From positions 1-54,056 of IMG/VR virus record IMGVR_UViG_3300028045_000020: a stretch of 54,056 nt of DNA, one strand, 5' to 3'. The notes beneath the pieces were generated by a model. That model made no database searches. It was given only the letters and a program-made list of their open reading frames with translations, and was not told the DNA's origin. Shown one piece after another: positions 35,567-54,056 of this stretch; the stretch's first letter is position 1; each line of letters starts with the position of its first letter. The DNA is from a virus. Both the position numbers and the translations under genes were made by a program.

Positions 35567-36481
35567 CTACCCCGCAGGATCGAAGCTGTAAAGTGTTTCC
35601 ATAACCTCAGTGTAGTTATGTTCGAGCGCCATTTGCGCACTTACCAACTCTCCATACATCTCATACCCAATGGCCTGAGCTTTTAGAAAATTGGCCATTA
35701 CCCTAACAAACTTTTTTGATACGTTGGCTTTCGCGTTGTTATTAACTACAGAAAACAGTTTACTGGTTATTGCATCTAACGTGTCCAATCTTTTTTGTAC
35801 TGCAGATATCCCCAATAAATTTTTTTCCATATCAAGCAACGTAACTCTCAGCTCTTTTAATTCTTTCATGTTATGAAATACCTTACTAAATGGTTTCTTC
35901 TTTCCGGGCTTATCCATATAGTCTTTTAAATGGATATTGTATAATTTGGTAGCCGCAGTAAGCTTAGCCATAACATTTGTTGCGCTCGAAGTAAAGGGGT
36001 TTTCGTAATCCTTACTTCCATTAATATCGATAATAAGGGATTTCATCATTGTAATAAATCGAGCGGATAAGTCACTGATTCCAATTGTTGTTAAGGTAGA
36101 ATTTAAGTTAGAAGTGGCTGATAGATAGGTGGCACTCATGCGACTAGGGACATCAATTTCTGCTGTCATAAATTTATCAAATGAGCTTCTCTCTATCCTC
36201 TGCACCATGACTGCATGACTTTCGGTATATGCTCTAATTTCTGAGCGTTTTAAACTTCTAGGGAATTTAAAAATATTGGTTTTTGCCGTATTCATGAAGC
36301 GACCAAACAAATCTATCATAGCGGTAAACACAGCCATGAGACTATTGCTGAGCGCCTCAGTACTAACAGAGTCATCCAATGTATCAATATATTGCAGGTA
36401 CTGATCCATAAGGTGGGTGAAGTTTTTTATAGATAAAGTATACTGTTCTGGCGATGACGAGTCTAATTGAATTTTATACAT
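35567..36481 (-). CDS. Unknown helical protein, 304 residues
   Basis: Start ATG at 36481 with GGAAGGAA upstream and a promoter-like motif at 36523-36536. The protein is almost entirely helical with many Ser, Thr and Lys residues (SLMAVFTAMIDLFGRFMNTAKTNIFK; MKELKELRVTLLDMEKNLLG). There is no membrane segment long enough to anchor it and no motif. It is 32 bases upstream of the coiled-coil membrane gene and may be co-transcribed. Function unknown. Confidence 0.65.
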   Translation of the reverse strand: MYKIQLDSSSPEQYTLSIKNFTHLMDQYLQYIDTLDDSVSTEALSNSLMAVFTAMIDLFGRFMNTAKTNIFKFPRSLKRSEIRAYTESHAVMVQRIERSSFDKFMTAEIDVPSRMSATYLSATSNLNSTLTTIGISDLSARFITMMKSLIIDINGSKDYENPFTSSATNVMAKLTAATKLYNIHLKDYMDKPGKKKPFSKVFHNMKELKELRVTLLDMEKNLLGISAVQKRLDTLDAITSKLFSVVNNNAKANVSKKFVRVMANFLKAQAIGYEMYGELVSAQMALEHNYTEVMETLYSFDPAG

Positions 36482-36586: not shown

Positions 36587-39500
36587 TTACCCGCTATAAT
36601 GCTCCGCACAGCCTCTCGAAGCAATAGTCCTTGACCATTGATGCGATTTTTTAACTGTCAGCATCCTCGATGCAGTCCCTACCGCTGTAGGAGTATCAAG
36701 GAAGGTACCACCTGCTAACATTCGATAAGCTCCGCCATTCCCACGACTGTACTGTCGTCCCCGACCGTTATCGGCAGGATGTGGTATGGAACTAAAGGGT
36801 AACTGAACGATAGTGCCGCCCTTGCCGGCAAATATAAGCATACCCTCCCTCAATGAAATAAAATTTAGTCTCTGGCCGTGTAACATTTTTTGAACCTTCC
36901 ACTCGGCCCCATCGATAGACATCCAAAGGTTACCGTCACTGGCCATTGCTAAGAATATCCCATCAATAAAAACTAGGTCTTTAAAGCTATAGTTCGGTAA
37001 ATAAAAAATAACCTCCTTAGTCCAGTGCTCTCCATTTAATGTTCCAACTTGAATCTCACCATAGTCTCCGACGATAATAAAATTATTCCCATTGCAGGCG
37101 ATCTTCCGAAAGGTTCCAAGATATGGCTCAAGTGGTAAATCCACGGACGCAGGCAACGCGGTATACCAGTGTAGCCCGTCAGGCGAAGTTTGTATCTCTG
37201 CATCTTCTCCAACGGCAAGAAAGATATTACCATTGTAGTGGACATCAAAGAATGTTCCATCATAACCATTGGCATTATTGCGATGAGTCCAAATTGCTCC
37301 GTCCGGAGAGGTTCGTATCTCGCCAGACTCTCCCACAGACACAAAGATACCATTGCCCCAAGCGACGGCATGTAACGTAAGCTCATAAGGCGTAGCGAGC
37401 GATTGTTTTTCCCAAACTATCCCATCTGGAGAGGTTTGTATTTCTCCAGCTTCGCCTACGGTCACAAAGATACCATCGCCCCAAGTAACTGCGAGGAAGC
37501 TACCAACAAAAGCAGCATCCGGTATCAGTCGTATCCACATGTCTCCATTTGGAGAGGTTTGTATTTCTCCGGCGGACCCAACAAAGACTAAGGCGTCGCT
37601 GGAAGCGGCCCAGTCGTTAAACTCTCCCACATAAGAAGTTCCTATGATCTCCTTTCCAGTAACGGCGACGCGATATTTATCCGCTTCGGAAAAGGGGATG
37701 GATAGAATCTCGTTCGTGCCGGTAGTCACTAATAACTCGCCGTCCACACTTGCAACCCTACGTAAAGGTTTTGCCGAATCGCTTAAACCATCAGTATTTA
37801 AGCGAGTCCAGATGATTCCATCCGGCGACCACTGTACTTCGCTGGACTCTCCTATGGCTACAAACACCCTGTTGTCTTCATCCCAAATAATATCATTGAA
37901 GGTAGAGCTATACGCATTGGTTGGGAATTGTTTAGTCCAAATTACTCCATCCTCCGAAGTTTGTATTGTTCCATAATCACCGACAGCAACGATAAGATCC
38001 TTGTTCCCTGCGATCCCATTGAAGTGACCAGGCTGGGGCGCTTGCGAAATAGGGCCATGCTGATACGTCCAGATGATTCCATCCGGCGAAGTTTCAACTG
38101 TCCAAGTCTCTCCCACAGCTACGAACATACTACCTGTCCAGGTCACCGCATGAAGATTACTAATCCACATACCATCATCACTCCGAATAGCCTCCGTCCA
38201 TATAACGGGACCGGTATCCAAACTTACCGGGGAAGAATATTGAATTACGCCCGTTGACCCAATCACGACAAAGTAAGACCCATTAAATGCACTCCCGCTA
38301 AACGGTGCTTTGTATGGGCCATATTCGGGATGTTCCTGAAGTTCCTCATACTCCCAGGCAACACCATCTCTAGAGACGCCAACACGATGCTGCTCCCAGT
38401 AGTGACCCTGCTTGAAATAGCCATCACCTACGGCAAGAAACCATCCTCCTCCCCAAGTAATGCTTGCAAATGCTCTCGGAACAGCGTAGAAAAAGTTTTG
38501 CGGTTCCCATGAAACTTTGTCAGTGCTGGAATAAACTAATGTATCCTCACCAACAACTATTAACATATTCCCATCATAGGCCATAGCATTAAACTTATGA
38601 GTAGGATCGGAGGAACAGTCGATGGATTTTCCAACATAAGGTTCGATTTGGGTCACAGGGAAAATAGGCTCATCGGCAGTCCCAGATAGCTTTGAAATTG
38701 AAACACTATATATATTTGAATCTGAATCTACCAACATTATCTGGTTGCTACAGTACGACATGTCAATGATGTCGCCGGAAATTTCTAAAACTTCACTAAC
38801 AGAGGTCCAGTAGACTCCATTAGGTGACGTTTGGATCTCCCCAGCCTCGCCAGCTATCACGAACATGCTACCTGTGAATATAATTTTTTTGAATGTTCCA
38901 TCATAACCATTCGCATTAGGAATTAAGGTATATTGCGTGGTGTTGGTAGAATGCCGGATAACTCCATCCGCTCCGACCACAATTAATATGTCTATCCCAT
39001 CATCGTTAGTACCAACGGCGATATCATACAGATCGTCACCGACAAGATCTGCCCATTCTGTTGTAACATGAGATCCGTCTGTCTCATGCAAATGGATCTG
39101 TGCACCTCCAACGGATATTATCTCTCCGAGAAACATTGTAGCTCCGCGTATCGGACCTACGTACGGGTCTGGCGCGCCCACACCTTCCGGATCCTTCGTA
39201 AGAACTAGTAAGTTCCACTGAGCCGGATTGTCCACGCTGGCTATCCCTAATCTCGCATTGGTCGTAGTTGCAATACCCCATCCCTCCATACAGGTTATGG
39301 AAATAATAGAAGATATCTCATCATAGAGTGCTGCATTAGTTACTATGGTCTGGGTTCCACTATCATCAGCTATATAAGTTATTAGTCCGGACTCGTGCCC
39401 AATAAAAAATACTCCATAGGCTTCTGAGAACGCAAGCGACGTCACATTGAAGGACATATTTTGTGGATAACTTGTCCAAGTTTCTATATTAGTGGTGAGC

Positions 39501-42500
39501 CAAAGTTCTCCCAGCGTACCTCCAGCGAGCTGGCTAAATTTACCAGCTGCTACTGCGCTAACATTTATCATGTTTACAGGGTAGCTAGGATCACTCATTG
39601 GCAACTCCGTTTTCGGGGTTACTGTAAATGGAGGAACATAGGGATATTTTGCAAGATCTATTGCTGTAATCGTTCTTCGACTACCACTGTCATATCCCCA
39701 CGAATGCTCATCGGAACTATGGTCTGCCGGGGTGAGGAGATCTTGCCATAAAATACCAGTAGCATCTTCAACTCCTTCGTGCGATACCATTCGTTGTCCA
39801 TCCTCGGATACATGCGCCCCAGAAGTAGAAAGACCGTGCGTATTGATAGCCGTAACCGCTTTAAAATTTCCATCCAAGTCCTCACCAACTATCATCACAA
39901 GATATGTCGCCGTTGGCCATTCCTCTGGGATAGTAACACTATCAACATTCACGGCCAGACCACTGGTATGGCCCATCGGCGTAGCACTTGATAACTCACC
40001 AACTTCGCTCCAATCATGATGGTCTTGGTACAGCCAAGCTCCGCCCGAAATATCAGTAGCTTTTATAAGCACGAACGCTATGTTCTCAACTAAGGTAGAG
40101 ATGGTGGTATCAGTGCCAGCAGTATGCGCCACTACATCATGATGAATTAGTGTCGGATCGTCGGGCTCAAACCATGCCTGATTCAAATACAAACTTGAAG
40201 GATCGTTTGTTACACCATCATCTTGTATAGGCATTGCGCCAGCAAAAGGAGAGTCGTTATTCCATATGCTGCTTATAAATAAACCATTGGATGATTCCAT
40301 CACCAGAGTTTTTCCAATCGGACAGCCATCGAACCATACTGGCCATGTCGACTGACTGGCATCGATCCCTCTCCGTACAAACAGTTTAAGTTGTTTATCC
40401 ATCGGCAGCGGAATAGTGGTCGTGCTCGATAATAAAGAAACCTGGGGTTCCCCTTCTCCCACTATAACTCGCACGGAGTTGCTAGCTGTCATTCCATAGA
40501 AATAACCGGCAGATCCGTTAGCGTTGTTCCTATGAATCCACGTAAGCCCATCCTCTGAAGTTTGTATTTCTCCATCGGAACCAATCGCAAAATAAATCCC
40601 ACCGCTAAAATAGACATTGAAAAAAATTCCAGAGAATCCATTGGCGTTATCCCGATGGGTCCAATTGATTCCGTCCGGAGAGGTTTGTATTTCTCCGGCT
40701 TCGCCAACTACTACGAACTTCGCCACTATTCCGGCATAATCTCCGTTAGCCACGCTGGTAAATAATCCGTTGTAGCCGTTAGCATTATCTTGATGTGTCC
40801 AAGTTACTCCATTTGGAGAGGTTTGTATTTCTCCGGCTTCGCCAACAGCAACAAAGATAAAACTATTATTTACTACACTTCGAAATGTCCCAGAGTATGC
40901 CCCGGCGTTTTGTCTGCTTGTCCAATTGGTACTGTCGGGAGAAGTTTGAATTTCGCCACTTTCCCCAACTACGAGAAATAAAGTATCATTATTGGAAGCG
41001 TCATACAAGGTACCACTGTATCCATCGGCTGTAGCTACTGCAGTCCAACGAAGTCCATCTATCGAGGTTTGAATTTCGCCTAGCTCACCCACAGCTATAA
41101 AAATTTCGTCGCACGAGGCAACAGCAAAGAAAGTTTCAGAATAACTATTGGATACATGTTGTTCGATCCAGGATATCCCATCAAAAGAAACAACGATGGT
41201 GGCATTATCCCCTACGGCTACAAATAGGTAGCCGTTAAAGGCAACATCGAGTAACCTAACTGCCGGAGTATTTGTTGTAGTCGTAAACTCTAATCCTGTT
41301 CCTGATTCCATAGAATAGGCATACCCCGTTTTAGGATTAATATACCAGGTATTGGAACCGCACCGAACTACCTCAGTAGTTTTCCACAGGTATGCTGTGA
41401 TCCTATCAAATTTATTAAATCTATTAGAATATCCGAGTGATATCCCATTTCCGTGGAAAGCTTTAATAGCTCCGACATTCGTATCAATAAACGTTGGAAC
41501 CTTTCCGATACTGATATGGGATCTTCCCCCAAAAAATTCTTTGTCCGTAAGATCGAGATAGGAGCCCTGATCTCTATTTCGTTCCCATGCCATGCAACCA
41601 TTTGTATCAGCTGTATAGTTAGCACCAGTCGCAATAGTTTGGGAAACTACGCCGACAGTAGGCTCATGATACCCGCCCATCTGCGTGAATGAGTTGTATC
41701 CACTCGACTCGCCACAAAAAGCAGCGACGTAATAAATTCCAGTAGCCCACGATTCTGGGAGTATTAAGGAAGAGCCAGACACCTCGAAGGGATAAAGCAT
41801 CGCGGTTTCTTTTTTATCCGTGTTCAGAGAGGTGTATCTCTCCCATCCACGAATGCGAAGAAAATTCATCCAGTCCCCTTCTCGGTCTATTCGTTTGATC
41901 AAAATTTTATCGGGAATAAGCTTAAGATCTATTACCGTAGGCACTCCTTTTCCATGGTTAGTAGTTATCATAGAAGTGCACTCAGTGCCATATAGCCCAG
42001 AGGTTCCAGTCGCTTGTAAGGTGGAGATGGTTTTGTTTTTTATAGTTAAAGGGTTTTGGGCTCCAAATAAAAAGACGGCAGTTCCGTCCCATACGGCTCC
42101 GGTAGGTGTTGGTACATGTTCCACTACTGTAGCGCAATATACCCAAACTATCCCATCCGTCGAAGCTTGTATTCCCCCATGTGACTCAATTGCTATAAAG
42201 ATAGATCCATTCCAGACTACACTGATAAGGTCGACCGCTCGCATCCAGGTATTACAAGAACGATAGCTTGTCCAAATCTTGCCATTAGTAGAAGTTTGTA
42301 TTTCTCCGGACTCTCCTACCGCCACAAAGATATTACCATTGGTAGCTACATGGGATAGATTTCCGGTATACCCAGAGTCGGTTTCTCTATGCTTCCAATT
42401 TATTCCATTGCCTGAAGATTGTATCTCACCACTGTCCCCTACAAGTATTATGAAATTATCCTGAAACGAGATATCGCGAAACGTTTTATTGTAAGATAGA

Positions 42501-44569
42501 TCGGCGCTGCGATGCGCCCAAATTATCCCATTCGGAGAAGTTTGTATTTCCCCATTATCTCCGACTACAACAAACATGCTACCAGTCCAAACAACCTTAC
42601 GGAACGCTCCAGCATAATTACCATCGCAGTTTCTATGGGTCCATGCTCCAGCCACGGTGGAAGTTTGTATCTCGCCATTGGCTCCTACCACGACGTTGAT
42701 GATCCCATCTGAAGCTGCGCTCGTAAAGTATCTTATCGTGTTTGCAGGGTACGGATTATTAATAAGTTCTTTAGTCCATACAAGCCCAGTGGGGGAAGTC
42801 CATACAACCGGCGTGGTTCCCCAACCTATTAGTTTGGTGCCAGTCCAGGTAGCACTAACTATAAGTTCTGTTGGACCTATCATCGGTACAGAAGATAATT
42901 GTACCGAAAACGCGTTGCTTATAGTGCTTCGCTTAGGATCGCCAAACCATCCATAAAGTATATTATTTTTCTCCGGCTGTGGAGGTGACGCATTTATTGT
43001 GTCGCTACTATTGATTACGATAGTAGTATCTCGATCAAGTGAAGCAGGAGCAACTCCAAGCGGAGCTCCGATGGCAAACTCATCCAGCTTTAATTGGGAT
43101 GCAGCGTCGGTATTAAGTCTAAGTGCCTCTCCCGGGGCTAAGCCAAGTACGTACGCTGGCCAGCGACTATCCGAATTATAATTTTTAATGAAGACTGCCA
43201 TAGGAATCCGGTCGGCCGGGGAGTATATAATCCTATCACTCGCTCCGTCACCCTCGTATATACAAAATCCAAAGCCTGTGTCTGGATTATACTTCCATAA
43301 AATCCCACTCTGCTCCAGCTCTTCTTCCGAGCAACTGAAACATTCATACTGGATTTTATCGTTAGCGTTACTAAGAACCGAGTCATTCTTTATAATCAAC
43401 CCATCGTAGCTAAATTCTGCAATTGGACTGTCAACGGAAGCATGTATGGAGTTGGTACGAAGAGCGGAGCCGCTACCCCTGTATGTATCTATCAGTTGTG
43501 TTCCAACGGAGGTAGCTGATAAATTTTTAATAACCACTATTCCGAAACGTTCCTTATAGTTAAGTCCCGTCAGGACGCGATTGTTACCGGCACGTATGGC
43601 CTGTTCTTCTGGAGAGCCCGCCATCACCATTGAAAATTCCACATCAGTTAGCATGCGTTTTCCGGAAGCCTGGAGTATTCTTACCGAATCGTACCACGAC
43701 CGGCTGAACTTTATGATGCTACCATAAGAGGATTTTCCGTCCCCTTCTGCTCCGAGATAAATATCTACCCAAAGATTAGATTCTTTATGATAGACCATAC
43801 CTTCCGGCGAACAAGTTAGCGGACGATGGTTCAAATCCCATACAGAGGCTGGGAGTGGGTCCCCGGCCCTATAATCAGAAAGCCCATGTGTCGTCATGAA
43901 TGGAGTGTCCTCGCATAGCGTATGAAACCCCCCTACCTTTCTGCTGCTATCATCGGTATATCCCTCCGGCGCATCAGGAGCGTCGGTAATTTTTATCGAT
44001 GGCACATTGGTTCCATTGTCATCATCACATAAGTAAATGTAATAGTCTTTTCCTGGAACTAGATCGGATAAATTTATCTGAGTTGGATCCTTAAGAACAA
44101 ATAGTCTAGCACTAGAATGGAGCGCAACAACTAAATGCGCCGGGGATAGCAATGTCGTGCGGCCAGCGATGGTAACGGAATCGGACATTCTCCAATCCCC
44201 CGAACACTTATATGCTAATGGAGATATTAGGTATGTCAAATGGTGAGAATTTATAAGGACGTCTGAGTTTGGGGCAAGCCTAACATCCTTGTCGGACATC
44301 CCGGCGGCAGCTCTCAGTCCATCGGAGGATCCTTGCTTTTCTGTAACGCCCTTGACTTCTTCTCGCAACGTGTCAATATCCCCAACAAAGTTAGCTTGCT
44401 TTGTCTGCAATACAGCTGCCGCGGCGGCTTTCGTAAGCAGTGCCCCGTCAGCACCATTGGCACTGTCAGTTACTTGTGTGACCTCTTCCCCGTTAAGCAG
44501 AAGTTTAGCAGTCTCTATTCTTGGAGTAACCAACTCATCGTTGGTTACCCTAGTCTCTTTAATCGCCAT
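36587..44569 (-). CDS. Giant tail fibre: split C-type-lectin domain with inserted beta-propeller arrays, 2660 residues
   Basis: Start ATG at 44569 with GGAGGAG upstream. Residues 1-95 are helical and probably the attachment end. At about 195-325 comes a block DYYIYLCDDDNG, SRKVGGFHT, WDLNHRP, GMVY, LWVDIYL, and GKRMLTDVEFSMVMAGSPEE, resembling the first half of FGE/Mtd-type C-type-lectin domains. Residues about 560-1400 hold many blades of about 40-45 residues built as FVAVGExGEIQTSPDGIxWT, with interspersed other modules. The lectin motif EGVEDATGILWQ follows at about 1600. A second blade array covers about 1660-2590, and the lectin end GRGRQYSRGNGG ... MLAGGTF ... ASRGCAEH is at about 2595-2660. 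The SPDGxxW blade motif resembles the Asp-box of sialidase-type and YCF48-type propellers. About 18 or more such motifs are visible. The role is host-surface recognition, inferred from the fold and context. Confidence 0.8.
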   Translation of the reverse strand: MAIKETRVTNDELVTPRIETAKLLLNGEEVTQVTDSANGADGALLTKAAAAAVLQTKQANFVGDIDTLREEVKGVTEKQGSSDGLRAAAGMSDKDVRLAPNSDVLINSHHLTYLISPLAYKCSGDWRMSDSVTIAGRTTLLSPAHLVVALHSSARLFVLKDPTQINLSDLVPGKDYYIYLCDDDNGTNVPSIKITDAPDAPEGYTDDSSRKVGGFHTLCEDTPFMTTHGLSDYRAGDPLPASVWDLNHRPLTCSPEGMVYHKESNLWVDIYLGAEGDGKSSYGSIIKFSRSWYDSVRILQASGKRMLTDVEFSMVMAGSPEEQAIRAGNNRVLTGLNYKERFGIVVIKNLSATSVGTQLIDTYRGSGSALRTNSIHASVDSPIAEFSYDGLIIKNDSVLSNANDKIQYECFSCSEEELEQSGILWKYNPDTGFGFCIYEGDGASDRIIYSPADRIPMAVFIKNYNSDSRWPAYVLGLAPGEALRLNTDAASQLKLDEFAIGAPLGVAPASLDRDTTIVINSSDTINASPPQPEKNNILYGWFGDPKRSTISNAFSVQLSSVPMIGPTELIVSATWTGTKLIGWGTTPVVWTSPTGLVWTKELINNPYPANTIRYFTSAASDGIINVVVGANGEIQTSTVAGAWTHRNCDGNYAGAFRKVVWTGSMFVVVGDNGEIQTSPNGIIWAHRSADLSYNKTFRDISFQDNFIILVGDSGEIQSSGNGINWKHRETDSGYTGNLSHVATNGNIFVAVGESGEIQTSTNGKIWTSYRSCNTWMRAVDLISVVWNGSIFIAIESHGGIQASTDGIVWVYCATVVEHVPTPTGAVWDGTAVFLFGAQNPLTIKNKTISTLQATGTSGLYGTECTSMITTNHGKGVPTVIDLKLIPDKILIKRIDREGDWMNFLRIRGWERYTSLNTDKKETAMLYPFEVSGSSLILPESWATGIYYVAAFCGESSGYNSFTQMGGYHEPTVGVVSQTIATGANYTADTNGCMAWERNRDQGSYLDLTDKEFFGGRSHISIGKVPTFIDTNVGAIKAFHGNGISLGYSNRFNKFDRITAYLWKTTEVVRCGSNTWYINPKTGYAYSMESGTGLEFTTTTNTPAVRLLDVAFNGYLFVAVGDNATIVVSFDGISWIEQHVSNSYSETFFAVASCDEIFIAVGELGEIQTSIDGLRWTAVATADGYSGTLYDASNNDTLFLVVGESGEIQTSPDSTNWTSRQNAGAYSGTFRSVVNNSFIFVAVGEAGEIQTSPNGVTWTHQDNANGYNGLFTSVANGDYAGIVAKFVVVGEAGEIQTSPDGINWTHRDNANGFSGIFFNVYFSGGIYFAIGSDGEIQTSEDGLTWIHRNNANGSAGYFYGMTASNSVRVIVGEGEPQVSLLSSTTTIPLPMDKQLKLFVRRGIDASQSTWPVWFDGCPIGKTLVMESSNGLFISSIWNNDSPFAGAMPIQDDGVTNDPSSLYLNQAWFEPDDPTLIHHDVVAHTAGTDTTISTLVENIAFVLIKATDISGGAWLYQDHHDWSEVGELSSATPMGHTSGLAVNVDSVTIPEEWPTATYLVMIVGEDLDGNFKAVTAINTHGLSTSGAHVSEDGQRMVSHEGVEDATGILWQDLLTPADHSSDEHSWGYDSGSRRTITAIDLAKYPYVPPFTVTPKTELPMSDPSYPVNMINVSAVAAGKFSQLAGGTLGELWLTTNIETWTSYPQNMSFNVTSLAFSEAYGVFFIGHESGLITYIADDSGTQTIVTNAALYDEISSIISITCMEGWGIATTTNARLGIASVDNPAQWNLLVLTKDPEGVGAPDPYVGPIRGATMFLGEIISVGGAQIHLHETDGSHVTTEWADLVGDDLYDIAVGTNDDGIDILIVVGADGVIRHSTNTTQYTLIPNANGYDGTFKKIIFTGSMFVIAGEAGEIQTSPNGVYWTSVSEVLEISGDIIDMSYCSNQIMLVDSDSNIYSVSISKLSGTADEPIFPVTQIEPYVGKSIDCSSDPTHKFNAMAYDGNMLIVVGEDTLVYSSTDKVSWEPQNFFYAVPRAFASITWGGGWFLAVGDGYFKQGHYWEQHRVGVSRDGVAWEYEELQEHPEYGPYKAPFSGSAFNGSYFVVIGSTGVIQYSSPVSLDTGPVIWTEAIRSDDGMWISNLHAVTWTGSMFVAVGETWTVETSPDGIIWTYQHGPISQAPQPGHFNGIAGNKDLIVAVGDYGTIQTSEDGVIWTKQFPTNAYSSTFNDIIWDEDNRVFVAIGESSEVQWSPDGIIWTRLNTDGLSDSAKPLRRVASVDGELLVTTGTNEILSIPFSEADKYRVAVTGKEIIGTSYVGEFNDWAASSDALVFVGSAGEIQTSPNGDMWIRLIPDAAFVGSFLAVTWGDGIFVTVGEAGEIQTSPDGIVWEKQSLATPYELTLHAVAWGNGIFVSVGESGEIRTSPDGAIWTHRNNANGYDGTFFDVHYNGNIFLAVGEDAEIQTSPDGLHWYTALPASVDLPLEPYLGTFRKIACNGNNFIIVGDYGEIQVGTLNGEHWTKEVIFYLPNYSFKDLVFIDGIFLAMASDGNLWMSIDGAEWKVQKMLHGQRLNFISLREGMLIFAGKGGTIVQLPFSSIPHPADNGRGRQYSRGNGGAYRMLAGGTFLDTPTAVGTASRMLTVKKSHQWSRTIASRGCAEHYSG
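40677..40846 (-). repeat. Direct DNA repeat encoding a propeller-blade core (example pair)
   Basis: A 32-base identical segment occurs at 40677-40708 and 40815-40846, 138 bases apart. It begins GGAGAGGTTTGTATTTCTCC on the plus strand and encodes (minus strand) the VGEAGEIQTSP core. Further near-copies lie at about 37430 and 37553, and shorter ones in the two neighbouring fibre genes (for example 53949-53960). Confidence 0.75.
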
Positions 44570-44587
44570 TCGGCTCCTCCAGTATCA

Positions 44588-44620
44588 ACCGTCCTACGAG
44601 CAAAGCACTCATAGGACGGT
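44588..44620 (-). terminator. Hairpin between the 1837- and 2660-residue fibre genes
   Basis: A 13-bp stem (ACCGTCCTACGAG against CTCATAGGACGGT, one G-U pair in RNA) with a seven-base loop, eight bases beyond the stop of the upstream fibre gene. No U-tract. Confidence 0.55.
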
Positions 44621-44627
44621 GAATCAA

Positions 44628-47600
44628 TTATTTTTTATTGTGGCGCTTAGTCGCACTATCAGCGCATCCTCTAAATCCCATTACAGTTGAACCGACCTCT
44701 CGATCAACCGACGCATACGCCTCAGATCCGCCACGAGAATCCTTTCCTCCTGCCGCTAAAATATAGTTTCCTGCACCTCCCGAAGAATGCCGTTTCCCTT
44801 GTCCGGAGTTATCGGTTTCCCATTTGACAGTAGAACTGCTGTCGTTAAATTGTCCAGCAGAACTTAGCAACTGCCACAAATATCCCGTACCGTCTTCAAC
44901 TCCAATGTTTGATACCATGCGAGTTAGTGATACACTACTGTTTATCCCAGTTGGGTATGTTCGTTGTCCACCAGCAGTAACAACAGCATTAAAACTTTCG
45001 GGACGGCTATCCCCAATTACCACCATGAACGTTCGTCCTGTCGGTAGTTCCTGAGGAAAAATTATTGTACCGTCAACTACAGTAAGTGGTGAAACTGCTA
45101 TTGGCAGATCGTCGCGCACCAGACTGTATTCCTCGTTCCAGTCTGGAGCACACCTGACCCAACATTCACCACTGTCCCATGCGCCATATAATATAACTCT
45201 AGGATTTATTATATCAGTCACTACCGAAGAGGGAGTCCCATTCTGATGTTCAAAGATACCATGGTAAGCTAATGACGGATCTCTTGGGGCAAACCACATT
45301 TGATTAAGGTACTGCTTGTCCGTCGTATTATGCCTGTTATCAACAAACAAATAATTTTCAGTAACCTCCGTTTCCCCAAACAGGTTCGAATCTATAAGTT
45401 CGCCATTTACTCCCATTCGCGCAACTTTTCCAGCCTCCATATCACTTCTCCAAATATACTGAGGAGCGGGCACATCACCAAACTCTATTCGCATAAGCAT
45501 CCTTAGAGTCCCTTTTAGTGGTAGCTTCAGCAAAGTAATATGATGGGATATCCAAGTATTGAATTGGTTATCAATAGCTACAAAAAAAGTTCCTACTCCC
45601 ACAAGACAAGATATTTCCTTACCTTGAAGTCCCGCACCGTTATAGTTGGACCAAGTAATTCCATCCTCTGAAACTATTTTCTGGCCAGTCGAACTTGCCA
45701 CTAACCAACCTTCTTTATTCGACGCTACTACACTCCATGAGACTGTATGGTAACCTGAGGGAATAGAGCAGATCGTCCAGTCTATCCCATTTGTAGAAGT
45801 TTGTATTTCCCCATTATCACCAACTGCCACGATATGATTTTCCTTGGAGGCAATCCCATTCCAAGTTCCAGTATACCCACCGGATGCTTGCCTACTTTCC
45901 CAAACTTCTCCATTTGTAGAAGTTTGTATTTCTCCTGAATTGCCAATCACCAGAAAAGTGGCCCCGTTCCAAACCAACCCATTCCATTCTCCAAGGTATC
46001 CAGACGAAATGTCTATAGCCCGATGGGTCCACGTTATACCATCAGGGGAAGTTTGAATTTCCCTGTTCCTCCCTATTGCAACAAACATACTTCCATTCCA
46101 AACTATATTAACTATACCCCCAGCATAACCGGTCATAGTCGCATCATGCCAAGTACCGTCAAAGTATCGTATCCCCTCACTTCCAGCAAGTATATAAACA
46201 CCATCGGCTTCGATGCATTTGTGTAACACAGTCTCTTCTGAGGTATAAAATAAATCCCAGTCTATCCCGTTATTAGAACGAAATAAATTTCCTGCAGCGT
46301 CGGTCAGCAAAAATATGCCTGCGTTCGTTATAGTCATAGAAGTTGGAGCATATAAGAGTCCGGTCACAACCTCCACTGAACCGGGGACGTGCGCAACGGT
46401 CTGTAGCGCCCAAGCAAATCCAATTTCTCTGTTCACATTCCATTCTATCCCATCCAATGTAAACTTCTCATTTGTTTTCCATAGAAAATGTTCAGAAATG
46501 TTAGAATCGGCATATGCAGAATTGCTGCTTAGCGTCACCCCGTCTGTCGTAAAATTATAAATACCAAGTGGTACACGCTCTGGTATCTTAGCGGTTGGAG
46601 CCAAAGAGACCACTGTTTGTTTTGTGAGGCCAGACAATGAAAATCTCATCCAATCATTTGCAGTTCTACTCTTACTCCAGGCCAGGCACTCATTGTGGTC
46701 TGTGATATAATCTATAGAGTTTTTAATTTTAATCGTTGGACTAGAAGTATTCTGATCAACTCCTCCATTAGATACCATCACCTTACATCCGTTGGTAACT
46801 TCTTTAAACGCAACTACCATAAGAAGTTCAGAAGCACAGTTTGCGCCAAACGTTAGTTCATTGCCTGAAATCTCGATAGTCTTCGAAGTTGTGTCAAAAT
46901 AATTTCTTGCTCCATGCGTGTTGTTGAGTTCTAGATAATTCCATCCAATGGCGCGACTAAACCATAACCAAGGACTATCCTCAATAATCCCCTTAATTAA
47001 AAGTATATCAGGCTCGAACGGAAAATTCATTTTAGTTAGCTGGCCAGCGGTATGCCTAACCTCGCCGAAGACTGAGTTTTCCGTTCCAAGCATAGTCTTC
47101 TTTGACATACCAAACTGAATGGAGATCCGATGGTATGTTAATAGGACATTGTTATTAAACAGATGTAGGGACATGCGCTCTCCAAAGTTTGGTTCCATCT
47201 GGGCCATCCCGGAACGATACCAATCAATCCCACTAGAAGACTGCATAGCCCCTGCTCCGAGGCCATTGCTGGTACTAAGGAATCCCGTCACTATGAAATA
47301 ATTCTCGTTCCATATTACATCCATGGTTGTTATCATAAGATCTTCTATGGTAGTCCAGACCCACTCACCACCGTAGACGATTGTGCCGACCTTAATAAAC
47401 TTATTATAAATCCATACGACCGTACTCTCGTTAGAGGCGAAAGTCGCCGTAGATTGAGCGGATCCACCAGCGCCCATAGGATTTGCTGCGAGCACCCAAG
47501 TTATCCCATCCAGAGAAGTATAGATATCGTACCCATTAGCAAGCGCAAGAAACACATTGTTATTCCAGATAAGTTTATTTATTGCCACCCCATTAGTGTC

Positions 47601-50141
47601 CGATGGACGGTTACCCTCGGTCCAATCGATTCCATTACTCGAAACTTGTAGTTCAAAATTCTCCGCGCCGCCGGCAACAAAACTGGTGCCATTCCATACG
47701 AGGGCAGTAAACTGTCCGGTGTAACCGTTAGCATTATTTCGCGTGGTCCAAGTTATACCATCTGGGGAAGTTTGAATTATTCCATTATCCCCAACGCTTA
47801 CAAAAATATTCCCACCCCATGTCACCTTCGCAGTACCGAGAGCCGTTGCTCCGTAAATCGTTCTTGCTATCCACTCGACTCCATCCGTAGTAGTATAAAT
47901 AGTTGACATGTTGTCTATGAGACAAGCGAATACGGTAGTGTCATTACTAAAAAGGTTAGTAGCTTCCTTTGGTAGTTCGGTAGAAGTTTTCCATTCCAAG
48001 CGAGTATTTGCAGTTTCTATTGGTAGTTCGTCTCCGAACCAAGCATACAACATATACTCAACCTCATCCGGATCAGGCGAATATAAAATAATCCCATTTT
48101 TCCCAGCCGTTACCCAATGATCCTTAAAATAAATTATGGTGACCATAGCAACGGGAGGACCATTGTTAATTACCATACGGGATACTCCGGTATCCTTATT
48201 CCTTATCGATATTGTGCCCGCAGAGTTTATAACCCCTTTCTGATCTTCGTGGAATACAAGATCGAGCGTTGATACATAACTCCCCTTGATGTCTGGAGCC
48301 AATTCCCAAACGATTCCATCGTAACTTATCATGGACGTTCCTGCTCCATGGCGGTCAAATACAACAAACTTTCCCTTTCCGCGCGCGTCCTCCTCCCATG
48401 TAACCGAAGTAAAATTTACGGAGCTGCCACCAGGATTGGGATGGATCGGCGTTATCCAGGTCTTGCCATCAACGGAAGTTTGTATTCCAGCACTGTCACC
48501 TACCGCTACTATGATATCTTTGTTAGCCGCTAAGAAGTTAAATTGTTCTGTATATTCTGTGGACGAAGTGGCCTGATTAAACTGAACAATAAAGTTGTTA
48601 ACCGATAGATCTCCGCCTAATGTTACGCTCTTATTACCCGTGATACCAGCATGCCATAATTCCGATTTACTGTAAGCTCCTTCTGTCGAAAGTGGAACGG
48701 TAAAAGTGATGCCTTGAGCATATGAATATATCCTCCATGGAGCAGGCCATGATATTGCCTTTACCCAGACCATGGCCGGAGTTTTCCCTATCGGGTTAGC
48801 TATAACTTTGGTAGCTTCCCTATTCCCTGCATACTTGCAAAATCCAAAACCAGTAGCGGAATTGTATTTCCACATAGTACCATCCGGTCCTACGAATTCT
48901 TCAGGGCAATAAAATAATTGCCGCATGAAAGAATCTTCCTCACTATTTCCAAATCCAACAGTCACTCCGGTACGTGTGTAGCCGATTAGTTCATCGCTAA
49001 GTACCGGAGTCTCTATGCCGCGCAACTGCAGAGCCTCGCCGGCTGTATCATTCTCTGCCCATGAGGATCCTAGCATGGTGTCAAATATAAACGGCTCGCT
49101 GTCCATGGTTAAACATTTACTTAGGATCATGCCGCCAGAACTAATAAAGTCTAGACCGATGTCGAGTTCTCGGTGATAGTTATTGTTAGCTTCTTGTTCC
49201 GGACTTCCGTCCATTACCATCGGAAATTCGGAGGAAGTAAGTAGTCGCTTGCCCTGATTCTTGAGCAACTGTATCGCAGTTACCTGTGGAATAGACGTAA
49301 GCGCATCGGCTTTATACACGGAGGATCCACTGAAATCGTTTAAATATATATCAACCCATAGATCCAATGAGGAGCAATAAACCATTCCATAAGGGTCGCA
49401 CCCAGCTGGTCTAAGGTTTAGGTCCCATATGGAGTCCGGTAATATATCCCCTGCTGTAAACCCATACAACGGATGCGTCGTGCTAACGCTATCTCCTATA
49501 TCAGTTCCTACTGTATGGAATCCTCCAATCTTCCGGCTGTTTACTATAGTGTAGCCATTCGGAGCAATCTTATGAGGGGATACTATTATCTTTGGTAGTG
49601 TTGAGCCATCTTGTCGATCACAGGCATATATGCAGTAGTCCATGCCGGCACCAAGAGTAAGCATGGCGAGTCCTAAAAATTTTCCGTGCCAAAAAAATAG
49701 TTTCTTGCCAGACGGAATTAAGACACTCAGTACGTCTGGGACCACTAGGGTACGCCTTCCCGAGCTAGTGAGCCTACTCTTAATGTGGAACTTCCCACTG
49801 CGTTCGTAATGATCCGGAGATACCAAATACGATAATCGATCCTCACCAATGTAGTAATCTCGTTTCTTACGAACAGATATATCCGCGTTTGACATATTAG
49901 TCAGTTCTCTGACTTTATTTGGGCTAAGCGGGTTCTCTCCAAGAGAAGTCATCTCCGCACCTAACAGAGCTAACTTAGTTGTGAAGTCTTCTAATTCTTG
50001 CTCTATTAAAATGCTAGCACTCTTAGAAGTAGTTAACGTGTTTGTTCCTCCAAGCACGGTCCCATCAAGTACAAATTCATCGACCGTGATAGAAGGATTT
50101 CCGAGTCGCTTACCGGTAGCTATTAGATCATTGATTGCCAT
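44628..50141 (-). CDS. Giant tail fibre, paralogue, 1837 residues
   Basis: Start ATG at 50141 with GGAG upstream. The N-terminal 110 residues differ from the other fibre. From about residue 175 the lectin first half is clearly related to the 2660-residue protein: DYCIYACDRQDG, SRKIGGFHTVG, WDLNLRP, GMVY, LWVDIYL, and GKRLLTSSEFPMVMDGSPEQE (about 300-320). A blade array and other modules follow, including a repeated PFEPDILLIKGI ... module. The lectin second half begins with NIGVEDGTGYLWQ at about 1745, then YILAAGGKDSRGG and MGFRGCADS at the end. A GFRGCA-type end and the VED-TG-LWQ block are hallmarks of phage C-type-lectin tail tips. This protein has one long insertion of about 1400 residues, against two in its neighbour. 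It is probably a second receptor-binding fibre. Confidence 0.8.
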   Translation of the reverse strand: MAINDLIATGKRLGNPSITVDEFVLDGTVLGGTNTLTTSKSASILIEQELEDFTTKLALLGAEMTSLGENPLSPNKVRELTNMSNADISVRKKRDYYIGEDRLSYLVSPDHYERSGKFHIKSRLTSSGRRTLVVPDVLSVLIPSGKKLFFWHGKFLGLAMLTLGAGMDYCIYACDRQDGSTLPKIIVSPHKIAPNGYTIVNSRKIGGFHTVGTDIGDSVSTTHPLYGFTAGDILPDSIWDLNLRPAGCDPYGMVYCSSLDLWVDIYLNDFSGSSVYKADALTSIPQVTAIQLLKNQGKRLLTSSEFPMVMDGSPEQEANNNYHRELDIGLDFISSGGMILSKCLTMDSEPFIFDTMLGSSWAENDTAGEALQLRGIETPVLSDELIGYTRTGVTVGFGNSEEDSFMRQLFYCPEEFVGPDGTMWKYNSATGFGFCKYAGNREATKVIANPIGKTPAMVWVKAISWPAPWRIYSYAQGITFTVPLSTEGAYSKSELWHAGITGNKSVTLGGDLSVNNFIVQFNQATSSTEYTEQFNFLAANKDIIVAVGDSAGIQTSVDGKTWITPIHPNPGGSSVNFTSVTWEEDARGKGKFVVFDRHGAGTSMISYDGIVWELAPDIKGSYVSTLDLVFHEDQKGVINSAGTISIRNKDTGVSRMVINNGPPVAMVTIIYFKDHWVTAGKNGIILYSPDPDEVEYMLYAWFGDELPIETANTRLEWKTSTELPKEATNLFSNDTTVFACLIDNMSTIYTTTDGVEWIARTIYGATALGTAKVTWGGNIFVSVGDNGIIQTSPDGITWTTRNNANGYTGQFTALVWNGTSFVAGGAENFELQVSSNGIDWTEGNRPSDTNGVAINKLIWNNNVFLALANGYDIYTSLDGITWVLAANPMGAGGSAQSTATFASNESTVVWIYNKFIKVGTIVYGGEWVWTTIEDLMITTMDVIWNENYFIVTGFLSTSNGLGAGAMQSSSGIDWYRSGMAQMEPNFGERMSLHLFNNNVLLTYHRISIQFGMSKKTMLGTENSVFGEVRHTAGQLTKMNFPFEPDILLIKGIIEDSPWLWFSRAIGWNYLELNNTHGARNYFDTTSKTIEISGNELTFGANCASELLMVVAFKEVTNGCKVMVSNGGVDQNTSSPTIKIKNSIDYITDHNECLAWSKSRTANDWMRFSLSGLTKQTVVSLAPTAKIPERVPLGIYNFTTDGVTLSSNSAYADSNISEHFLWKTNEKFTLDGIEWNVNREIGFAWALQTVAHVPGSVEVVTGLLYAPTSMTITNAGIFLLTDAAGNLFRSNNGIDWDLFYTSEETVLHKCIEADGVYILAGSEGIRYFDGTWHDATMTGYAGGIVNIVWNGSMFVAIGRNREIQTSPDGITWTHRAIDISSGYLGEWNGLVWNGATFLVIGNSGEIQTSTNGEVWESRQASGGYTGTWNGIASKENHIVAVGDNGEIQTSTNGIDWTICSIPSGYHTVSWSVVASNKEGWLVASSTGQKIVSEDGITWSNYNGAGLQGKEISCLVGVGTFFVAIDNQFNTWISHHITLLKLPLKGTLRMLMRIEFGDVPAPQYIWRSDMEAGKVARMGVNGELIDSNLFGETEVTENYLFVDNRHNTTDKQYLNQMWFAPRDPSLAYHGIFEHQNGTPSSVVTDIINPRVILYGAWDSGECWVRCAPDWNEEYSLVRDDLPIAVSPLTVVDGTIIFPQELPTGRTFMVVIGDSRPESFNAVVTAGGQRTYPTGINSSVSLTRMVSNIGVEDGTGYLWQLLSSAGQFNDSSSTVKWETDNSGQGKRHSSGGAGNYILAAGGKDSRGGSEAYASVDREVGSTVMGFRGCADSATKRHNKK

Positions 50142-50156
50142 TTAGTTTCTCCAATG

Positions 50157-50195
50157 TTACTTGCCGCGTTCGTACTACCCAAACGCGGCAAGTAA
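50157..50195 (-). terminator. Hairpin between the right-most and middle fibre genes
   Basis: A 14-bp stem (TTACTTGCCGCGTT) with an 11-base loop, eight bases beyond the stop at 50204. No U-tract. Confidence 0.55.
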
Positions 50196-50203
50196 TTTAG
50201 TTA

Positions 50204-53200
50204 TTAGTACGGACATTTTCCAAGAGACTTAGCGCAGCCTCTGTAGGTAAGGTCATTTCGACCATCCTCAGTCTTTCTGACATCTCCCCTTCTGCCCTCA
50301 GTACCGACATCCATTAAAGTTTCTGATGGTCCGCCGGCTATAAGGCAATACGAATCAGCATCCGAACTACTATATATGTATCCCCTACCGCTTCCGCCCT
50401 CCTCGTACTCCCATACACTATCATCGTTGCTATTGTATCCGGCAGTATCTTTTAGGTATTGCCATAAATATCCTGTAGCATCTTCAATTCCTATATTAGA
50501 TATTAACCGGGCATGGTTAGATCCACTATGGCGTCCCGGTGTTACTTTTGCAGACAGCTTTGGAAGATGTTTAGTAACAAAACCGTTGTGTTTGGATTCT
50601 CCCATAACCATTAACAAGAACCTACCAGAAGGAACCCCACCATCAGCTTTAATGGTCACTGTGTTGGATTCAAATAATACTGGACTTTTGTTTGAACTAA
50701 CTTCTACTACCCTACCGTCTGCTGTGTTATTCAGTAGGTCACTTATCCAATAGTTTGGGGCACTGGTGGGCTTACTTATTAATTTCCAGGTAAACTCCGT
50801 ATCATCAAGTCGTGAGATGACAATCGCCGTAGGGGCAATAACGCTAGTATCTATTACTGATTCAACAGAACCATCATTATCGATAAAGAGACATTGCCCG
50901 ACGGATGGATCGTCTGGCGCAAACCAAACCAAGTTAATAAAAGTTACTAATCGTTCCTCATCGAAGTTGTTACCTATTCGCTGTACCATATGGGGAAGAA
51001 GTCCCTGTTCTGGAACTTGCTCATCAACTACACCCATGTCTACAGGCATCGTATTGGAATAGCGCTGAAAGAAGGAGACCTTTCCTGGCGAATGGTCTTT
51101 CGTCCAGGCGACGGCCATGGTGGAGTCTTCACGACTACTAATTGCTACAAGGGGTACCTTCTGTATTGGAAGACTCATGGCCGGTGCTGGAGCAACCTCG
51201 ATTCGGTACGACTTACCTCGCCCAGTTACGACACAACTCGTTCCATTAGACGCTACCCCAGAAATTGCAGTAGTGGAAAATCTTTGATATGCCTTACTCC
51301 AGGTATTACCCTTATCTGAGGATATAGCATACCCTCCCTCGCCGTGTACTATTACGACGATGTCGCCAAAAACACTAATCTTTGATACTTCATAGGATGG
51401 GCGTGGTGGAATTATTTTGGCATCCCATAAGGTACCAGCTGTGGACACATACGCATACTCGCCACTACCAACTGCAATAAATTGCGTACCAGTCCAGACG
51501 ATGGCGGATAAGGGATGTCCTATCGATGTCGATACATTAGTCCAATCGGTACCATTTGGAGATGTCTGTATTGTCCCACCATCTCCAACTATAACCATTA
51601 GGCTCTCGTTCGACGTTGCGTAATTAAACTTTATAGAAGGATCGATGCCTGCGCCTGCGCTTTGGGAAACCCAGAGCAATCCATCAACTGAGGTAAGGAT
51701 GCAATTATTTTCCCCTACCGCTAAAAACATAGTGCCGGTGAAGAATATTTTAGTTATCTCCTCCGGGGCAACATAGCCAGTATCCCTCCAAACGATCCCA
51801 TCTTTAGATGACGCCATCCGTCGGGAAGTTGCATCACTGATTAGCCATATACCAAGGCCGTATGCTACGGCACTCCAATTTGCTTTATTATATCTTCTGT
51901 CGGTCCAATCGATTCCATTTGTAGAAGTTTTGATTAATCCCTCCTCCCCTACCATTACAAACAAACCATCGAGGTAAGCTATGTCCAACACTGTCCCGAA
52001 TCCTACAACAGAGATGTCCGGGAGTCCGCCTCCCCGCCGCTGTTGTACACTATATGCAAAGCCAGAAGCCCGGTTAAATCTCCAGGTAATTCCATCAATA
52101 GTCTCAGCCTCGGTAGTGTGCCAAGCATGGATTAACATTTCTTTGTTAAGGAGTCTATTGGTATCTCGTAAAGTAAACCCGGAGTTATTAAACGCTCCAA
52201 CCGTCAGGTTTGTGTCCCACAGCGGAAGGCTCGGTTCAATAAATCTCATAGGTAGTGCCGCACTACTTGAGTCATCGGCATTCCATATCATTCCGCCACT
52301 GTTGGGAGAATTATAATCTGCCCCCAACCCCACATTATAAGCTGGAGTTAGAGCGTCAGTTCGGTGCGCTCCGGCTACGACAGCATATCCATTAGCATGT
52401 TCCCTGAATGCTACTACTAAATAATTTCCAAAATCATTCAGTTCGCTAAGTTGTACCTTAGTCCCAACTACCAGTTGTCTCCCGACAATAGGCTCCACGC
52501 TCGATGTATCCCGGGAGTTATAGAGATTGAATGCGCTAAAATTATTTTGTTTTCTATAAATAACTCTGATAGCATCACTAGCATCAGTACGGTGTATCAT
52601 TACAGTATCCGGGGCGAACCCCACGTCTATGCATGAACCGTCATAATTATTGTGGCTCATTTCGCAGATGGTGGTATCCGCGGATACCATCAGGTGGTTT
52701 GGGCGAGCTATCTTAATAGTGCAATCTTCTCCTACGGCAATTAAGGCACCATCAAAGTAGCTAATACTATGAAATGATTTGTTGTTACCGAGCCGAACTA
52801 TTGATTCCCAACCAATGCCGTCATGTGAGGTTTGGACCTGTCCCCTGCTACCTAACAGGGTAAACGTACTCCCATCCCAAACAACATCACTGATCCTATC
52901 AATCGTACCAGAGGCGTTATCGCTGTGGGTCCAATTGATTCCATCGTAGGAAGTTTGTAGTTCTCCGCCATTACCAGTCACCAGGAATATGGATCCGTTC
53001 CAGTTGACACTAGTAAAGAGATCGGAGAAGTCGTTACTGATAACAGTGGCCCTGCTCCAAGTAATTCCATCAGTAGAAATTTGTATTTCACTATCTCCGC
53101 CTACGGCCACAAAGCTACCGTTCCCCCAAACAACATCATAGAACTGTCCGGTATAACTACCCGCACTACTCGTGCTATTCCAGGTACTACCGTCATCAAT

Positions 53201-54056
53201 GGAATACTGAATAGTTCCATTGTCACCAACCGCAACCAACGCTGAGGGCCCTGCTGCGACGCCTCGGAATCTACCAGTGAACGCGTTGGCATTATCGTGA
53301 TGAACCCAATCAACCCCATTAATCGATGTTTGTATTTCACCAACATCTCCCACAATAATGAAGGAGTTGGTGTTAAATGTAGTACCACCATACCAGGTGC
53401 TAGTGTAAGCGTATGCTGGCGAAGACAGTATCCAAGTTTTTTTATCTGTGGTGTGGAGGATGGTGCCGGAGGATCCCAACAGTAGCATCATGTTATTATT
53501 ATGCAATACTTTAAATAATGTAACAGTTAGATCGATCCCTGCTATGGCGGCTGTATCTGCCTCGTCCCAAACGATACGGTGTTTGGCATTGTTACCTTCC
53601 ATCGGCGTTTTCTCAGGAAACCAGGCATACATCATGTATTCGTCATAAGAAGAAATACTTCCGATGTGGATCAGTCCGCCGTGCCCTACCACTATCCACT
53701 TGCCCTTAAAAAACCCCACACCACGAAGAGGATTGTTCGGAGTTATGCTATCATGCTTAATCCACGAATCATCGTAAGGGTCGTCACTCATGGATGTTCG
53801 TATTTCTCCGTAGTCAGGATTGCCTGGCGGGTTCGAAGGGTCCAAGACGGGCCCTACCCTCATAGAATAAGCTCCATTACTGGCCACGAAGCTTGGGGCA
53901 TGGGTTTGGCCCGAGACACTCCCGACATAAGTCCAATTGATTCCATCCGGAGAGGTTTGTACCTCAGTGTCATTGTTGGCGTAAATGGTAAATTTTGATC
54001 CGTCATAGTCTATGTAATTAAACCATTGCGTAGTTCCGTTAGCGTTATCTCGTATA
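50204..54056 (-). CDS. Third giant tail fibre, N-terminus outside the window (at least 1283 residues)
   Basis: The frame is open from the stop at 50204 to the right edge. A GTG at 53887 would give a 1227-residue protein, but in-frame sequence upstream still encodes a propeller blade (FTIYANNDTEVQTSPDGINW) and has no stop, so the true start lies beyond the window. Blades with two canonical Asp-boxes are visible (SIDDGSTW; SSDKGNTW) along with many SxDGxxW variants. The lectin end NIGIEDATGYLWQYL, CLIAGG and TYRGCAKS is at the C-terminus. The protein is a relative of the two genes downstream and probably recognises another receptor. Confidence 0.8.
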   Translation of the reverse strand, partial: IRDNANGTTQWFNYIDYDGSKFTIYANNDTEVQTSPDGINWTYVGSVSGQTHAPSFVASNGAYSMRVGPVLDPSNPPGNPDYGEIRTSMSDDPYDDSWIKHDSITPNNPLRGVGFFKGKWIVVGHGGLIHIGSISSYDEYMMYAWFPEKTPMEGNNAKHRIVWDEADTAAIAGIDLTVTLFKVLHNNNMMLLLGSSGTILHTTDKKTWILSSPAYAYTSTWYGGTTFNTNSFIIVGDVGEIQTSINGVDWVHHDNANAFTGRFRGVAAGPSALVAVGDNGTIQYSIDDGSTWNSTSSAGSYTGQFYDVVWGNGSFVAVGGDSEIQISTDGITWSRATVISNDFSDLFTSVNWNGSIFLVTGNGGELQTSYDGINWTHSDNASGTIDRISDVVWDGSTFTLLGSRGQVQTSHDGIGWESIVRLGNNKSFHSISYFDGALIAVGEDCTIKIARPNHLMVSADTTICEMSHNNYDGSCIDVGFAPDTVMIHRTDASDAIRVIYRKQNNFSAFNLYNSRDTSSVEPIVGRQLVVGTKVQLSELNDFGNYLVVAFREHANGYAVVAGAHRTDALTPAYNVGLGADYNSPNSGGMIWNADDSSSAALPMRFIEPSLPLWDTNLTVGAFNNSGFTLRDTNRLLNKEMLIHAWHTTEAETIDGITWRFNRASGFAYSVQQRRGGGLPDISVVGFGTVLDIAYLDGLFVMVGEEGLIKTSTNGIDWTDRRYNKANWSAVAYGLGIWLISDATSRRMASSKDGIVWRDTGYVAPEEITKIFFTGTMFLAVGENNCILTSVDGLLWVSQSAGAGIDPSIKFNYATSNESLMVIVGDGGTIQTSPNGTDWTNVSTSIGHPLSAIVWTGTQFIAVGSGEYAYVSTAGTLWDAKIIPPRPSYEVSKISVFGDIVVIVHGEGGYAISSDKGNTWSKAYQRFSTTAISGVASNGTSCVVTGRGKSYRIEVAPAPAMSLPIQKVPLVAISSREDSTMAVAWTKDHSPGKVSFFQRYSNTMPVDMGVVDEQVPEQGLLPHMVQRIGNNFDEERLVTFINLVWFAPDDPSVGQCLFIDNDGSVESVIDTSVIAPTAIVISRLDDTEFTWKLISKPTSAPNYWISDLLNNTADGRVVEVSSNKSPVLFESNTVTIKADGGVPSGRFLLMVMGESKHNGFVTKHLPKLSAKVTPGRHSGSNHARLISNIGIEDATGYLWQYLKDTAGYNSNDDSVWEYEEGGSGRGYIYSSSDADSYCLIAGGPSETLMDVGTEGRRGDVRKTEDGRNDLTYRGCAKSLGKCPY

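Follow-up and report, generated by a model that had tools for sequence, protein, structure and literature searches.

The window analysed here is the full length of a virus record (54,056 bases) that belongs to a metagenome collection. It contains a fibre locus (36587-54055, minus strand) in which three large genes stand in a row: those for P0001 and P0002, both complete, and a third, 5'-truncated paralogue (Table 1). Between 1695 and 33951 the window has a phiKZ-like content, with three RNA polymerase beta-type subunits, a DNA helicase, UvsX-like and SbcD-like proteins and structural proteins. The two features by which a phiKZ-like jumbo phage is recognized, a multisubunit RNA polymerase and phiKZ-type structural genes, are both found, and by its gene content the window is a fragment of such a phage. 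Judged by one RNA polymerase subunit, with identities of about 25-27%, the closest named phages are jumbo phages of Pseudomonas, Bacillus and Vibrio, and one of the beta-type subunits has just 25-38% identity or so to the relatives found. The jumbo relatives recruited by RNA polymerase (L111, L112) have neither PF21916 nor propellers. Adjoining the fibre genes is a 304-aa protein (35567-36481) whose sole match is a sub-threshold one to T4 gp7; a search of the phage collection for its relatives found none. Searches of the window for RNA families and tRNAs also found none.

Table 1. Features of the fibre locus, in window coordinates, with the evidence for each
Feature	Coordinates	Strand	Evidence or remark
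P0001 gene, 2,660 aa	36587..44569	-	one ORF
P0001 residues 160-335, Mtd beta-sandwich end and first CLec part (beta1, alpha1, alpha2)	43565..44092	-	
P0001 insert 1, residues 336-1586, loop alpha2-beta2	39812..43564	-	1,249-residue gap in profile match
P0001 DUF7483-like modules m1-m2 (336-565)	42875..43564	-	DUF7483 3.4e-5, positions 30-187, below gathering cut-off
P0001 propeller 1 (~570-865)	41975..42862	-	six blades scored, seventh by spacing
P0001 DUF7483-like modules m3 and m1b (868-1100)	41270..41968	-	profile-profile comparison
P0001 propeller 2 (~1100-1392)	40394..41272	-	six blades scored, seventh by spacing
P0001 modules m2b-m3b (1393-1586)	39812..40393	-	profile-profile comparison, alignment
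P0001 residues 1587-1630, CLec beta2 piece RMVSHEGVEDATGILWQ	39680..39811	-	family profile 198-250, 25.3 bits
P0001 insert 2, residues 1631-2600, loop beta2-beta3	36770..39679	-	blade profile
P0001 residues 2601-2660, CLec tail beta3-beta5 (AGG...RGCA)	36590..36769	-	family profile 249-303
P0002 gene, 1,837 aa	44628..50141	-	one ORF
P0002 residues 162-322, Mtd beta-sandwich end and first CLec part	49176..49658	-	
P0002 insert 1 (~324-1735)	44937..49172	-	1,403-residue gap in profile match
P0002 residues 1736-1837, second CLec part beta2-beta5, uninterrupted	44631..44936	-	profile 194-303, 44.7 bits
Third paralogue, 1,283 aa, 5' end beyond window	50204..54055	-	propellers and modules as in P0002
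Third paralogue, second CLec part	50207..50554	-	family profile 196-303, 54.1 bits; phrog_11262 298-355

The first-pass annotation had reported lectin motifs on the N side and at the far C-terminus of both complete proteins, and all of them were located as described. In P0002 they lie at residues 202 (SRK), 239 (WDLN), 252 (GMVY), 261 (LWVDIYL) and 312 (GSPE) on the N side and at 1741 (RMVS), 1748 (VED), 1755 (LWQ), 1797 (AGG) and 1824 (RGCA) on the C side. In P0001 the N-side motifs are at 209 (SRK), 244 (WDLN), 266 (LWVDIYL) and 318 (GSPE), followed by RMVS at 1593, LWQ at 1607, AGG at 2619 and RGCA at 2652. The same C-terminal lectin piece also ends the third gene, which the earlier annotation had not included in its claim. 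Both N pieces score above the 24.6-bit cut-off of PF21916 ('Mtd second domain'), with 51.5 and 48.8 bits and E-values of 1.5e-13 for residues 160-335 of P0001, which also match phrog_11262 at 4e-33, and 9.7e-13 for residues 162-322 of P0002. The earlier proposal that this piece is lectin-like is therefore borne out: as judged from sequence, it is the Mtd beta-sandwich and the first part of the C-type lectin (CLec) fold, and the C piece supplies the remainder. No match of residues 1-159 or 1-160 to the Mtd_N beta-prism was found with Pfam.

Each complete protein runs a single time, without a change of order, through a family profile built from 42 viral relatives that lack interruptions. Positions 28-202 (191.7 bits), 198-250 and 249-303 are matched by P0001 residues 160-335, 1580-1630 and 2601-2657, and positions 37-191 (145 bits) and 194-303 by P0002 residues 162-318 and 1724-1829. 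With this profile, trained on proteins other than those of the window, the C pieces have independent E-values of 4e-14 and 3e-8, and of 6e-17 for the third gene. In phrog_11262 the N pieces match up to profile position 308 and the C piece of the third gene matches from 298. The nearest solved structure by sequence is Mtd of Bordetella phage BPP-1 (1YU0-1YU4, 2IOU; PF21916, phrog_11262), which shares the beta-sandwich, the FGE-type CLec and the order of the motifs; the joined P0001 pieces match all PDB Mtd structures at 3e-12 to 7e-12, mainly through the N piece. A phmmer search of whole P0002 against the PDB gave chance matches only. Unlike the window proteins, BPP-1 Mtd is a continuous chain of 381 aa whose loops at the two breaks are short. 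It also has an N-terminal beta-prism, which is not family-wide, and a diversity-generating retroelement (DGR) beside its gene.

In the CLec topology (PMC6328139, PMC5006420) the N piece corresponds to beta1, alpha1 and alpha2, and the C piece to beta2 to beta5, so neither is a complete domain. The first-pass annotation had counted it against its own proposal if the two pieces folded as separate complete domains without contact. A distance of more than 1,200 residues between them would suit two such domains that merely flank a propeller array, a possibility which we nevertheless consider very improbable: the matches are non-overlapping, adjoining parts of one profile, neither piece has all the CLec core elements, and both parts are present in 145 of the 149 relatives whose 3' end is intact.

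The distance between the lectin pieces is about 1,403 residues at the first break in P0002, about 1,249 at the first break in P0001 and about 970 at its second. These lengths were taken from split-domain matches because global hmmalign misplaces long inserts. At the same two points the relatives have medians of 25 and 31 residues, in agreement with the earlier statement that typical halves lie tens of residues apart. The breaks match 'insert 2' (alpha2-beta2) and 'insert 3' (beta2-beta3) of the CLec fold, named in the paper on TaqVP, a DGR variable protein with this fold and with inserts in the same places (PMC6328139; see PMC5006420). The lectin is thus discontinuous where the fold is known to tolerate inserts. 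In TaqVP, TvpA and AvpA the inserts there are of about 17-75 residues (PMC6328139, PMC5006420), against 970-1,400 residues with complete domains in the window.

The same two sites are also interrupted in other Mtd-like viral proteins (L082, L050, L084, L025, L072 and others), which differ from the window proteins in having inserts of 71-151 residues without propellers. Viral and genome collections supplied 166 family members, including the two proteins of the window. Of the others, 21 are interrupted, mostly by 71-119 residues at the first break or by 145-151 at the second. Alone among the sampled relatives, L082 (9722-11623) has inserts at both sites, of 119 and 148 aa, and may be seen as a small model of P0001. 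Its predicted structure (634 aa, 76-row alignment) has a pLDDT of 82.5 and a pTM of 0.72, with the lectin parts mostly above 90. By DSSP, alpha2 spans residues 239-246, beta2 408-416 and beta3 592-597, with insert 1 between alpha2 and beta2 and insert 2 between beta2 and beta3, and a Foldseek alignment with Mtd 1YU4 covers the entire model (E 2e-14, TM 0.65 on Mtd). In L082, then, the lectin fold is predicted to be able to close around inserts at both sites.

The inserts of the window proteins consist of beta-propellers and DUF7483-like beta modules. A blade profile gives 27 blade matches in P0001, with missing blades placed by spacing. In the first insert of P0001 there are two seven-bladed propeller sets, the remainder being DUF7483-like modules. 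The second insert has 21 blades by spacing, which fits three seven-bladed propellers (~1660-1965, 1985-2305 and 2310-2590), the first of these weak by sequence. The first insert of P0002 has, in order, DUF7483-like modules, about four blades (534-695), a seven-bladed set (725-1040), modules, a second seven-bladed set (1265-1535) and modules, with several blades weak. The first-pass annotation had described this stretch as about 1400 residues of propellers, of which the length stands and the all-propeller content does not. It had also placed a second array of about 950 residues in P0001 between LWQ and the AGG/RGCA end; the split is indeed there, and the size has to be corrected to the figure given above. 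Two groups of blades, each before a YAWF motif, are too few for a seven-bladed propeller: about four at 48057-48542 in P0002 and at least three at 53726-54022 in the third gene.

The propeller fold was obtained by structure prediction for propeller 1 of P0001, and the other arrays were recognized with the blade profile. In the AlphaFold2 model the pLDDT is 80-97 over residues ~614-825, and the modelled propeller matches seven-bladed propellers in the PDB (E 2e-9), including YCF48 (2XBG, 5OJR), a fold of the YCF48/BNR type. The modules flanking this propeller folded with low confidence (mean pLDDT 56). An alignment built for folding P0001 residues 1570-2660 misplaced lectin rows into the propellers and was discarded. 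Matches to DUF7483 (PF24299) score 23.6, 24.1 and 15.7 bits, all below the cut-off of 27. By profile-profile comparison the modules of the first P0001 insert form two units (m1 against m1b 94%, m3 against m3b 88%). DUF7483 positions 30-212 lie before a propeller and 237-328 after it, which suggests that this propeller may itself be inserted in a DUF7483-like domain. No relatives of the insert modules were found in viral contigs or phages.

Propellers were found in none of the 164 other Mtd-like proteins sampled, in scans that covered the best 80 loci and may miss very near relatives. Single-protein scans of viral contigs with the N half found no close relatives, and those with the third gene gave two weak propeller matches, both without lectin. 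In other viral contigs a propeller of this type mostly makes up a separate protein of about 400 aa, and such proteins are often encoded in tandem, whereas in the window several lie inside a lectin chain. On one contig there are three tandem propeller genes (L091, L098, L099), which suggests duplication of a propeller cassette. A propeller also lies inside a lambda gpJ-like tail protein (L092:9290-13042), with phrog_469 positions 15-179 before it and 207-897 after it. A 1,110-aa protein (L104:9791-13120) has seven propeller-profile matches, with several propellers flanked by a weak Mtd_N match on one side and a pectate-lyase-like domain on the other. As to the lectin family itself, Bartonella genomes (L117, L118, L120, L122-L124, L127-L137, L143) have many Mtd-like lectin genes, with five loci in strain B1099 alone.

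We consider it quite probable that the three genes encode paralogous Mtd-related receptor-binding proteins in which one CLec domain, split by arrays of modules and propellers, closes into one fold. Each protein would consist of an N-terminal attachment region, an Mtd beta-sandwich and a single C-type lectin domain of the FGE type. The profile matches show, at the level of sequence, the lectin chain leaving after alpha2, crossing some 1,250-1,400 residues of modules and propellers and returning as beta2. In P0001 it leaves a second time after beta2 and comes back about 970 residues later to complete beta3-beta5. From homology we infer that the lectin pieces of the window close into one fold within a chain. 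If they do, the lectin would be a base from which the arrays project as arms, adding binding surfaces or reach. This base is probably trimeric, as in Mtd, with about five propellers per P0001 chain. It may also be that the lectin and propellers together touch ligands on the host surface, giving several binding surfaces, and, since both loops tolerate insertion, that the arrays grow by duplication of blades and modules.

The possibility that the lectin pieces are decayed remnants, and that only the propellers and beta modules are still functional, has to be considered together with diversification of the lectin. An RT-like ORF is found in 74, and an A-biased template-repeat-like copy in 56, of the 126 relatives with enough downstream sequence. 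The 54-kb record has no RVT_1 reverse transcriptase, and no template-repeat copy of the gene ends was found in the window (best 55/120 bases). The window lectins are therefore probably not diversified by an adjacent retroelement, bearing in mind that the record is a fragment. The missing template repeat and reverse transcriptase would suit decay, as would the loss from the window proteins of parts of the family's C-terminal (variable-region) consensus. The weakest piece, the last 60 residues of P0001, scores 4.5 bits in the full family profile, which also points this way; with a tail profile it scores 14.8 bits, against a maximum of 10.7 in 2,000 shuffles. Decay is nonetheless unlikely in our judgement, as core positions (SRKxGGFH, WDLN, LWVDIYL, EDxTGxLWQ, AGG, RGCA) are kept on either side of the breaks in P0001 and P0002 and in the C piece of the third gene, the same design is kept by three paralogues, and truncation should be free to remove a decayed C end.

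More improbable still is a domain swap, in which the N piece of one subunit in a trimer would be complemented by the C piece of its neighbour and the arrays would link the subunits. Mtd is an obligate trimer (PMC6328139), and links of about 1,000 residues would have the necessary length. Against this, the prediction for L082, whose inserts at the two sites are shorter, is a fold closed within a single chain, and the profile match is collinear. Separate complete domains have been dealt with above, and misassembly of unrelated propeller genes into lectin genes is the least probable explanation of all, for in this record from a metagenome collection, with its diverged repeats, three adjacent genes have the same design with different contents in open frames without a stop, and the DNA identity between blade repeats is mostly no higher than 60-80%, which makes collapse or chimaera unlikely while the exact number of blades could still be affected.

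Returning to a split lectin that closes within one chain, the first-pass annotation had put the architecture forward as undescribed. This holds for the size and content of the inserts and not for their positions, which are known CLec insert sites. The lectin, the insertion sites and the propellers are already known, and the unusual part is the insert size, the content and the nesting. No description of such an architecture was found in the open papers searched, a coverage outside which most subscription journals lie. The tentaclins (PMC10743442) are likewise phage receptor-binding proteins with a C-type lectin and extra domains, and one Brevibacillus example has a propeller; in these the lectin is followed by Ig domains in series, whereas in the window the lectin is split and the propellers are inside it. 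A wider reading, in which propellers sit inside DUF7483-like units that sit inside the lectin, cassettes enter unrelated tail proteins and a trimer bears some fifteen propellers, can be offered as a tentative one, somewhat doubtful as a whole. It cites the gpJ-like protein in L092 as a second host of the propeller.

If the lectin closes, each of two loops in that of P0001 accommodates an insert several times the size of the lectin itself, and the insert sizes are well beyond those found here in other lectins of the type. There would then also be a pitfall for annotation, in that methods that expect a continuous domain detect just half of such a lectin. The relatives with small inserts make the idea testable at bench scale. 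If it is true, the CLec fold would be a chassis for whole arrays of domains, and one adsorption protein could provide a jumbo phage with many binding surfaces.
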